Source: an uncultured Methanomicrobiales archaeon (lineage in GTDB: Archaea; Halobacteriota; Methanomicrobia; Methanomicrobiales; Methanospirillaceae). From it: a DNA stretch of 43,810 nt. How positions within the stretch are numbered: the stretch's first letter is position 1; each line of letters starts with the position of its first letter. The notes beneath the pieces are model-generated. The model saw nothing but the letters and a program-made list of their open reading frames with translations. It ran no database searches and was not told the DNA's origin. The stretch is taken from positions 1 through 43,810 of the forward strand of contig CAILCG010000002.1 in the NCBI GenBank assembly GCA_903832665.1. The letters run 5' to 3'. Made by a program: the position numbers and the translations under genes. Below, piece after piece: positions 8,712 through 29,730 of the stretch.

Positions 8712-8785
8712 GGGTCTGTAGCTTAGTTCGGCATAGCGGCGGACTCTTAATCCGCAGGTCAAGGGTTCAAATCCCTTCAGGCCCG
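8712..8785 (+). tRNA. tRNA-Lys (anticodon CUU)
   Basis: The acceptor stem 8712-8718 pairs fully (one G-U) with 8778-8784. D stem 8721-8723/8735-8737. Anticodon stem 8739-8743/8751-8755 with loop CTCTTAA and anticodon CTT at 8746-8748. T stem 8761-8765/8773-8777 with loop TTCAAAT. Discriminator G8785, no encoded CCA, no intron. A T-rich tract follows directly. The AT-rich island begins at the tRNA 3' end. Confidence 0.97.
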
Positions 8786-27570: not shown

Positions 27571-27759
27571 TTATTTCTTCGCAGACGGTTTTTCGTCATG
27601 GATCAGTTTGCACTTGTTGACACATTCCCAGTTTTCGGGCAGGAATTTCCCATCAGCACCGGGTCTCATCACCGCGTTGTGCTTTGCCCCGCAGACAAGG
27701 CATTCCATAAGCCCGGAAGATTCGTCCACCACTTTCATTACATGTTCTTTCTTTGTCAT
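27571..27759 (-). CDS. Small zinc-ribbon-like protein
   Basis: A 62-residue protein starting MTKKEHVMKVVDES with a GGAG site about 10 bases upstream. It contains CLVCG at residues 20-24 and a second pair of cysteines in WECVNKCKL (about 45-53), a plausible single zinc site, and ends in a lysine-rich tail. An earlier in-frame start at 27828 would add sequence without similarity to such domains and lacks a ribosome site. No specific family is recognised. It may bind nucleic acid or protein. Confidence 0.6.
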   Translation of the reverse strand: MTKKEHVMKVVDESSGLMECLVCGAKHNAVMRPGADGKFLPENWECVNKCKLIHDEKPSAKK

Positions 27760-28013
27760 GGTTGCAGTCTCCAACTTTGGCACAGATAAAGGCATGGAAT
27801 GAGGAAATGCCGGCAATCCGTTCCCCACCCGGGTTCATAGGATATCCGGGTTCGGAGCCGGGGTGGTGCCGGATGCATACGGGACAAGGAGGAACAGGCA
27901 GCCCCTGCATACCCGCGTTCCGCGATACCCCGGATTTTACGGTATTTTGGGGGTTTGGTTTTATGAATGGTTACTTCATGTCATACGTCCAATACTATGG
28001 TAGTGACACGCTC

Positions 28014-28141
28014 ACAGGTTCCCGGCACAGGGAATCCGGGCGACATTTCCGCTGTCGCTCCAGGCCCGCATGAATTCATTGCAGCCCCTGGTAACCAGGG
28101 GCACCCCGGGCCCGAAAAATCTGTGCCGGCCAGGAACCTGT
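28014..28141 (+). ncRNA. Candidate structured RNA, three-way junction
   Basis: In the gene-free interval 27760-28170, the sequence folds into nested helices. P1: 28014-28022 pairs with 28133-28141 (9 bp) and 28023-28030 with 28121-28128 (8 bp), separated by a 4-base bulge on the 3' side. P2: GCGACA/TGTCGC at 28040-28045/28053-28058 with a 7-base loop. P3: GGCCCG/CGGGCC at 28063-28068/28107-28112, enclosing a perfect hairpin GCCCCTGG/CCAGGGGC (28084-28091/28095-28102). The strand is chosen because the winged-helix gene starts 30 bases downstream. It may be a cis-regulatory leader, an independent RNA or a palindromic mobile element. I recognise no known riboswitch class. Confidence 0.45.
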
Positions 28142-28170
28142 AACCGGTTAATCTATCACGAGGTTGAAGT

Positions 28171-28449
28171 ATGGAGTCTATATCATTTGAAGTCCCGCAA
28201 GTCTTTGTGCCTGATCCCATCCATATTCACATTCTTCAGGCAGTTGGCGATAAACAAGGTTGCCATATCACCCATGTGGTTGAGCAGCTTCTCGCCAGCC
28301 ATGGTGAGAGCAGCATCAGGTCGAACGTCCGTATCTTACTCTCCAAGCGATATCTCGACGGGGGCAAATCCAGCAGCGAGATCGTACTCCGGCTCACATC
28401 GAGCGGTCGGCTCCTGCTCCAGAAGGCAGCAGCAGCAAAAGCAGTCTGA
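28171..28449 (+). CDS. Small winged-helix DNA-binding protein
   Basis: A 92-residue protein with a winged-helix pattern: IHIHILQAVGDKQGCHITHV (helices 1-2), VEQLLASHGESSIRSNVRIL (recognition helix region), LSKRYLDGGKSSSEIVLRLT (wing) and GRLLLQKAAAAKAV. Start ATG 28171 has a GAGG site 8 bases upstream. The predicted three-way-junction element ends 30 bases before the start, so its transcript leader may carry that structure. A strong hairpin plus T8 follows at 28567. It has no partner gene on the same strand. Target genes are unknown. Confidence 0.72.
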   Translation: MESISFEVPQVFVPDPIHIHILQAVGDKQGCHITHVVEQLLASHGESSIRSNVRILLSKRYLDGGKSSSEIVLRLTSSGRLLLQKAAAAKAV

Positions 28450-28566: not shown

Positions 28567-28598
28567 GGCACCTGAAAAAGAGAGGTGCCCTTTTTTTT
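28567..28598 (+). terminator. Hairpin plus T8 terminator
   Basis: GGCACCT/AGGTGCC (28567-28573 and 28583-28589) with a 9-base loop is followed by eight T residues (28591-28598). It terminates the winged-helix transcript and overlaps the stop codon of the convergent C39-like peptidase gene. Confidence 0.75.
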
Positions 28599-29367
28599 AT
28601 GACGGGAGGGGCGCGTTGCCGGGAACGGCAACAACATATACCCGGTCCTTCATCGATGCCGGGAAGTAATGGGCATCGAACTCCCCGTAATTGAAGTACG
28701 TGATCCCGTCCACGCGATCATCATGGCAGTCCACGGAATCGGCAAAGAGGATCACATCGTCCCAGACATTCTCTGTGCCCCGGGTATCATATCCCACAAC
28801 CACGACCCAGTGCCCGCCCCAGTCCATCCATTCCACCATCGTGGGAATGCCGTTCTTCAGGTTCTCCCGGAGCATCTCGCGGCTGCCGCCGGTCGACCAG
28901 CTCGCGTTCATACCCTGCCGCTTGAACCATGCGACGATCTGTTCCGGGTTGATGCCGGTCTTCTCGCTGACATTGGGGTACATATCCCGGGCTACCTGTT
29001 CCTCATCGGCATCGGAATTGTTCACGGGTTTTCCATACCAGGACATCACCGTCATGGCCGAAACCGCACCACAACTGTAGTTGGTCACCTGCTGCCGGTA
29101 ACTTTTGAGGGGCAGGACGGTGAGGTGATCGTTGGATTTGAGCGTATCAAAATCAATGCCCGTATAGTACTGCGGGCCGGGCAGCGAGGTCTCCGACACG
29201 TACTTCACACCGGAGTTGTCTCCCGGGGGAGTGAGGAATGTCGGGGGGATGACGGGGGGAGCGAGTGATGCAGAGGGGAGCACCGAACAGGTAAAGATGA
29301 TCGCAAAGGCCAGCACCACAATGGCAGCCGCGGCAAGCACGGCAAAACTGAGATTGAGCGGACGCAT
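28597..29367 (-). CDS. Secreted C39-like cysteine peptidase
   Basis: A 256-residue protein with an N-terminal membrane anchor or signal peptide (residues 5-33), then a proline-rich linker and a C39-like papain-fold domain. Catalytic features: Gln93 and Cys99 in QQVTNYSCGAVSAMTVMSWYG, and His186 in GGHWVVVVGYD with a following Asp194. The C-terminal region VDGITYFNYGEFDAHYFP completes the fold. It probably acts outside the cell. The start has a GAGGTG site 8 bases upstream that overlaps the stop region of the AN1 protein gene, so the two form an operon. Bacteriocin-type processing is not implied, as no ABC exporter is fused or adjacent. Confidence 0.88.
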   Translation of the reverse strand: MRPLNLSFAVLAAAAIVVLAFAIIFTCSVLPSASLAPPVIPPTFLTPPGDNSGVKYVSETSLPGPQYYTGIDFDTLKSNDHLTVLPLKSYRQQVTNYSCGAVSAMTVMSWYGKPVNNSDADEEQVARDMYPNVSEKTGINPEQIVAWFKRQGMNASWSTGGSREMLRENLKNGIPTMVEWMDWGGHWVVVVGYDTRGTENVWDDVILFADSVDCHDDRVDGITYFNYGEFDAHYFPASMKDRVYVVAVPGNAPLPS

Positions 29368-29379
29368 GATTTTTACACC

Positions 29380-29730
29380 TCACCCGAACCGGTACCCGCT
29401 GAACGCCAGCCATGCAATGCCGAGAATGATCAGGACAAGAATGGCAAGGAGTATCGCAAGGTACGGGAGATCGTTTCCGGTCTTCGCTGGTCCGTTTTTT
29501 TTGTTTCCCGCCTGCCGGGGGCCGGGAATATCGCTGCCACCCGTGGGAGTTGCTCTTCCGCCTTTTCCATAGGATATGCCAACCGACGGGAGGGGTTTGC
29601 TGTTCCACAGGACGATATTGACGCAGTCATGGTTGGGCGGCAGCCGGCAGTCAGCGCAGTATCTTCCCCCGCAGTACTGGCAGGAGAACGGGAGCACAAC
29701 TTCGTTTCCGCAGCGATCGCACCGGCTCAT
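29380..29730 (-). CDS. AN1-type zinc-finger membrane protein
   Basis: A 116-residue protein. The N-terminus carries an AN1-like zinc finger with C4, C7, C17, C20, C25, C28, H34 and C36 (CDRCG, FSCQYCGGRYCADCRLPPNHDC); the usual His after the fifth Cys is Cys28. A Gly/Pro-rich linker (45-85) leads to one C-terminal membrane helix (about 88-110). Such AN1-plus-helix proteins are frequent in methanogens and often sit beside rhomboid or other membrane proteases; here the partner is the C39-like peptidase. A role in protein quality control is inference. Confidence 0.85.
   Translation of the reverse strand: MSRCDRCGNEVVLPFSCQYCGGRYCADCRLPPNHDCVNIVLWNSKPLPSVGISYGKGGRATPTGGSDIPGPRQAGNKKNGPAKTGNDLPYLAILLAILVLIILGIAWLAFSGYRFG

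Follow-up and report, generated by a model that had tools for sequence, protein, structure and literature searches.

A predicted control region with a covarying stem upstream of a winged-helix gene in an uncultured Methanomicrobiales archaeon

Positions 27959-28170 of the window (the whole stretch analysed, 43,810 nt of contig CAILCG010000002.1, GenBank assembly GCA_903832665.1, from an uncultured Methanomicrobiales archaeon) are predicted, with a chance that we put at about even, to be a control region dedicated to one small winged-helix gene and to consist of a promoter/operator block and a 5'UTR stem-loop. The block at 27967-28016 would serve as promoter and operator, probably bound by the winged-helix product of the gene itself, and the structure at 28014-28141 would form the body of a 5'UTR of about 180 nt, with its foot just before the Shine-Dalgarno sequence. 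The closing helix of this structure appears to be under selection and the interior free to vary. The stem would most likely act near the 5' end of the mRNA, where it protects the leader and sets the place of the ribosome-binding site; it would not be a ligand-sensing three-way junction. A preliminary description had presented 28014-28141 as the object of interest. So described the object is incomplete: within the leader, conservation of sequence is found in 27967-28016, just upstream.

Closing helix and variable interior

The inverted repeat was folded on the plus strand. The outer P1 helix of 9 bp (28014-28022 with 28133-28141), a 4-nt bulge (28129-28132) and an inner P1 of 8 bp (28023-28030 with 28121-28128) enclose two inner stems, the P2 hairpin (28040-28045 with 28053-28058) and the 8-bp perfect hairpin of P3 (28084-28091 with 28095-28102); sequence and fold agreed on this arrangement, as it had been described. 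The minimum free energy of 28014-28141 as RNA was -67.2 kcal/mol, against -47.0 +/- 4.25 kcal/mol for dinucleotide shuffles (n=200), giving z = -4.76 with 0/200 shuffles as good; the comparison with shuffled sequence proposed in the preliminary description thus came out far on the side of structure. The minus strand gave a z of -3.8, nearly equal to the plus strand, so a single sequence does not determine the strand. Outer P1 pair probabilities in the modelled transcript were 0.94-1.0 for eight of the nine pairs and 0.50 for the innermost, and the stem can be weakly extended outward by pairing GTGA (28003-28006) with TCAC (28156-28159). The ATG at 28171 lies 29 bases beyond the end of the structure (30 had been stated).

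Only a tRNA gene at 8712-8785 on the plus strand (RF00005, 69 bits) passed a family threshold when the whole window was scanned with Rfam, and the leader structure was without a match. A permissive Rfam scan of 27900-28250 returned two matches at chance level (E 2.6 and 4.6), in line with the earlier remark that no known riboswitch was recognised.

Compensatory change in at least one helix, as in a structured 5'UTR or cis-regulatory RNA, was found in P1. Among eight close species, both strands of outer P1 carried compensatory changes, affecting 4 of 10 closing-helix positions: G-C, G-U and A-U pairs occurred at each of positions 4 and 6, U-A and A-U at position 8, and C-G and U-A at position 9. 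The first ten positions read ACAG-GTTCC/GGAAC-CTGT in this genome, ACAGAATACC/GGTATTTTGT in G032 and ACAAAATATC/GATATTTTGT in G012. Intermediates in these close species were G-U in eight cells and C-A in two, and RNA of the gene-sense strand is therefore favoured. Over all closing stems of all species, in longer alignments, the excess of G-U over A-C was small (78 to 59). When the fold of this genome was mapped onto four relatives, 7-9 of the nine outer P1 pairs were retained.

In most species an insert of differing length separates the block from the Shine-Dalgarno sequence and folds into a stem. Pairing of the arms was examined more widely by halving each insert without overlap and matching 5' arms to 3' arms both of the same and of other species, with 20000 permutations. 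Arms from the same species paired at -14.9 kcal/mol and crossed arms at -11.4 kcal/mol, with 0/20000 permutations as good; shuffled arms gave -10.5 kcal/mol. The signal was present within the clade of this window (1/20000) and weaker outside it (381/20000, z -2.2). A coding-region control gave no signal (4800/20000), and a control taken upstream of the block gave a smaller same-species excess (-12.0 vs -10.2, 34/20000), so that intergenic inverted repeats have a background of their own and the signal may be partly general. Compared with shuffles, the stem region had a mean z of -1.87 in 33 species, most of which fold better than shuffled sequence; stretches of equal length upstream of the block had a mean z of -0.19 (Wilcoxon p 2e-6 vs the stem region). 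Folding energy showed no strand preference across species (16/33). P1 is taken to be a selected stem because the energy of the structure beats that of shuffles and compensatory change in P1 is found in relatives.

The interior (inner P1, P2 and P3, within 28023-28128) folds in this species and is variable between species. P2 kept 3/8 and P3 7/18 pairs in the nearest relative, and 0-4/8 and 0-7/18, respectively, in four relatives. In close relatives the loop enclosed by the closing helix was as short as 10 nt and as long as 121 nt, and G010 has a loop of 10 nt where this genome has 110 nt. The preliminary description had named compensatory substitution in P1, P2 and P3 as the evidence to be sought. 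It was present in P1, with four positions altered on both sides and the permutation result of 0/20000, and was lacking in P2 and P3, neither of which is preserved even in the closest relative. The proposal of a new structured RNA in the form of a three-way junction thus held for stem P1, which covaries, and failed for P2 and P3, which are absent from relatives; since these two are not preserved, the three-way junction belongs to this species alone. What is conserved is the closing helix, and the interior is mostly species-specific. A striking fold in a single genome can thus consist largely of embellishment peculiar to that species around a single conserved helix.

Conserved block, candidate promoter signals and the winged-helix gene

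The conserved 50-nt block ATGGTTACTTCATGTCATACGTCCAATACTATGGTAGTGACACGCTCACA (27967-28016, plus strand) was defined from an alignment of 31 species, in which its consensus is ATGRTTACWTCATSTC-N5-CMAATACTAT-N4-GGTGATTCGTTCACAG, and by profile search. Block element 1, ATGRTTACWTCAT (ATGGTTACTTCAT in the window; 27967-27979), has near-invariant columns and is a possible operator copy 1. An AT-rich box, CCAATACTAT, was located at 27989-27998 by the AT profile of the columns, and block element 2, GTGACACGCTCAC (consensus GTGATTCGTTCAC; 28003-28015), is a possible operator copy 2 and forms the 5' edge of the stem. The block profile (R1) was searched against 232 genomes of the order and found in 37, with E from 1e-13 to 2.6e-6, each time directly upstream of the winged-helix gene. 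There was one strong copy per genome, the next-best profile match having E=0.011, and no strong block without the winged-helix gene occurred in the 232 genomes. Because the copies are single and gene-linked, the block is private to this gene and is neither a regulon motif nor a dispersed repeat. A regulon for block element 1 was also sought with the pattern GGTTACTTCATSTCATAC at up to 3 mismatches and was rejected, the matches being no more numerous than those of the reversed control pattern. The block was undetectable in six gene-bearing genomes (G017, G033, G039, G042, G045 and G050).

In three compact leaders of the sister genus (G054, G055 and G053; loci L065, L066 and L067) the block nearly abuts the Shine-Dalgarno sequence and start (GTGATTCGTTCACAGGAGGAAAGATG). 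Since these leaders, a minimal form provided by nature, keep the block and have almost no insert, the block stands without a long insert and is the essential part. The gene that precedes the compact leaders of G055 and G053 resembles, by eye, translation initiation factor aIF1A.

Autoregulation of the winged-helix gene through the block is putative, the exclusivity of the block to that gene being an indirect sign of it. Of all 13-mers in the block, ATGRTTACTTCAT and GTGATTCGTTCAC, on either side of the in-block AT-rich box, resemble each other most, which suggests two operator copies as a lead only. A two-operator model of direct repeats or palindromes within the block was not significant against shuffled columns (255/300). 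Since neither the likeness of these 13-mers nor any palindromic character reaches significance, binding of a protein to the block is a guess.

A TATA-like box, TTTTATGA, at 27959-27966 (plus strand) is the candidate core promoter; sister species have TTTTTATATGG. Every species of the clade of this window (clade A) has TATA-like 8-mers in the stretch of about 15 nt that precedes the block. Outside this clade the sole positionally conserved AT-rich stretch, scored as AT by column, was the in-block box, which is for that reason the candidate TATA there; TATA positions thus differ between clades. In G003 and G109 the block lies about 50 nt beyond the preceding gene, and the intervening stretch holds no TATA-like sequence. 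Long 5'UTRs are frequent in the methanogen Methanolobus psychrophilus, whose BRE/TATA elements are found at a distance of about 19-22 nt from the start (PMC5378194). With spacing as in that species, transcription in this clade would probably begin about 20 nt beyond TTTTATGA, around 27986-27990 and a short way before the stem. The Shine-Dalgarno sequence GAGGT (28160-28164, plus strand) belongs to a stretch, ACGAGGTTGAA, that is conserved ahead of the start codon among close relatives; in the folded leaders of the various species it was neither clearly open nor clearly closed.

The gene at 28171-28449 (plus strand) encodes 92 aa, and the protein had no Pfam or NCBIfam assignment. An AlphaFold2 model based on 31 orthologs gave a winged helix (pLDDT 85.7, H-H-H-E-E-H), and Foldseek matched it to MarR-type regulators, AspA, TubR, SSV1 F-93 and AF1382 with TM of about 0.6-0.7; the earlier identification of the gene as winged-helix was borne out by this predicted structure. 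Its recognition-helix region is nearly invariant among orthologs, and the product of the gene downstream of the leader was a winged-helix protein in all species examined. The gene was found in 42 of the 232 genomes of the order (E<=1e-5), covering its own genus, the sister genus, two additional genera and one additional family, the G018 copy being truncated. By this ortholog search its distribution is limited to Methanoregulaceae and one other family of the order. G042, of a related genus, has two paralogous copies (L118 and L119), both without a detectable block.

Several neighbouring genes on the minus strand were recorded. The gene at 27574-27762, divergent from the winged-helix gene, encodes a small conserved protein (TMTKKEHVMKVVDESSGLMECLVCGAKHNAVM...) without a Pfam match, which is kept beside the winged-helix gene in close Methanoregula species at 82-93% identity. 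A C39-like/papain-like cysteine peptidase (PF13529, PF12385) is encoded at 28597-29367, tail to tail with the winged-helix gene, and such a gene was found within about 1.5 kb of the winged-helix ortholog in a number of Methanoregula species. The small protein encoded at 29380-29730, starting MSRCDRCGNEVVLPFSCQYCGGRYCADCRLPPNHDC, resembles by eye an AN1-type zinc finger with a C-terminal membrane segment; its gene is a neighbour in many relatives.

Alternative readings

Block and stem could instead form one cis-regulatory leader RNA, in which the block senses a protein or small molecule, the stem is peripheral and translation is controlled; this, the main rival, we regard as unlikely. A conserved core with a variable, covarying helix is the usual look of leader RNAs, TATA-like boxes lying 26-39 nt before the block in several species would put the start at the block edge, and in a few species (G034, G009) base pairing is possible between the block and the Shine-Dalgarno region. 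Such pairing of the block with the Shine-Dalgarno sequence or start, however, was no better within species than between them (matched -6.95 vs crossed -7.12), and an anti-Shine-Dalgarno role for the block, suggested by eye in single species, was dropped since it showed no co-variation between species. Pairing of GRTTAC with GTGATTC inside the block was just weakly better (458/5000) and was rejected as an alternative structure. The TATA-like box that directly abuts the block in this clade and the lack of any TATA-like sequence in the roughly 50 nt before the block in G003 and G109 also count against the leader-RNA reading. That block and stem together make up a new class of archaeal cis-regulatory RNA, found in Methanoregulaceae and one sister family, is considered unlikely. 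If it were true, the 50-nt core would be the site through which a winged-helix protein or a ligand acts on translation of the winged-helix gene. A conserved upstream ORF (MVTSS...) encoded by the block was thought of because of an ATG at the block start in 34 of 37 species with similar first codons. It is extremely improbable: ACG, CTG or GTG replaces the ATG in three species, stops occur at codon 4 to 6 in G008, G018, G002 and G049, and the frame length is not conserved.

Three further readings concern the arms of the stem themselves. Were the arms half-sites of a DNA-binding protein (GGTGAT/ATCACC), with RNA folding incidental, one would understand why they are largely conserved as sequence outside this clade (GGTGAT...ATCACC), why GTGA-N5-TCAC is itself a dyad and why folding has no overall strand bias. 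Within this clade, however, the arms change completely (ACAGGTTCC, ACAGAATACC, ACAAAATATC, GAATCCCGGTC) and complementarity stays; they do so despite a recognition-helix region that hardly varies in the protein, and G-U intermediates are tolerated in the stem. This reading is accordingly given a low probability. Much the same low standing, a trace lower, is given to a functionless inverted repeat produced by template switching in replication. Fast turnover of the interior, widely variable lengths, the species-specific extra hairpins of this genome and some inverted-repeat background upstream of the block agree with neutrality; against it, most of the species compared, which number more than 30, have a stem in this place, with step-wise compensatory changes through G-U. 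Insertion of a palindromic, MITE-like mobile element upstream of the gene, raised earlier as an alternative, would explain the large inverted repeat and the difference between the loop of 10 nt in G010 and that of 110 nt here. The repeat is nevertheless single-copy in the 2.88-Mb genome, and relatives have differing, non-homologous interiors always at the same orthologous place, which makes insertion very improbable. In viral contigs no exact match to the core pattern was tied to the gene family, the scans giving nothing above chance, and no viral relatives of the gene were found. The preferred reading is that of a private promoter/operator block and a 5'UTR stem-loop.

Comparison with known systems

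The region is read as a promoter/5'UTR control region that serves one gene and has a structured leader, and it matches no known Rfam family. Small archaeal winged-helix proteins that are autoregulated exist, with folds such as SSV1 F-93, AF1382 and those of the MarR, AspA and TubR matches. The present case resembles them in the small size of the protein and in the conserved private element at its own promoter, and differs in that the family is unassigned in Pfam/NCBIfam and binding is putative.

Few archaeal cis-regulatory elements are known outside model species, and just a handful of archaeal cis-regulatory RNAs have been confirmed or even predicted (PMC7247131). The 50-nt element and covarying stem, kept across two methanogen families that are uncultured or little studied, give transcript mapping and binding assays a well-defined object. 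Among described elements, the archaeal ribosomal-protein leaders (S15, eL15 and L4, one of them from Methanomicrobia; Eckert and Weinberg 2020, PMC7247131) are similar as gene-specific leaders of Euryarchaeota with helix covariation. A ribosomal-protein leader was rejected here on the gene downstream, which encodes the winged-helix protein and not a ribosomal protein in all species examined; moreover, one helix is conserved here and the interior is not, and the conserved sequence may be promoter DNA. The structured 5'UTRs of Methanolobus psychrophilus (PMC5378194) share with the present leader a long 5'UTR and a stem-loop near the ribosome-binding site. They are single-genome predictions made from mapped starts, whereas the leader described here was derived from cross-species comparison with a predicted start.
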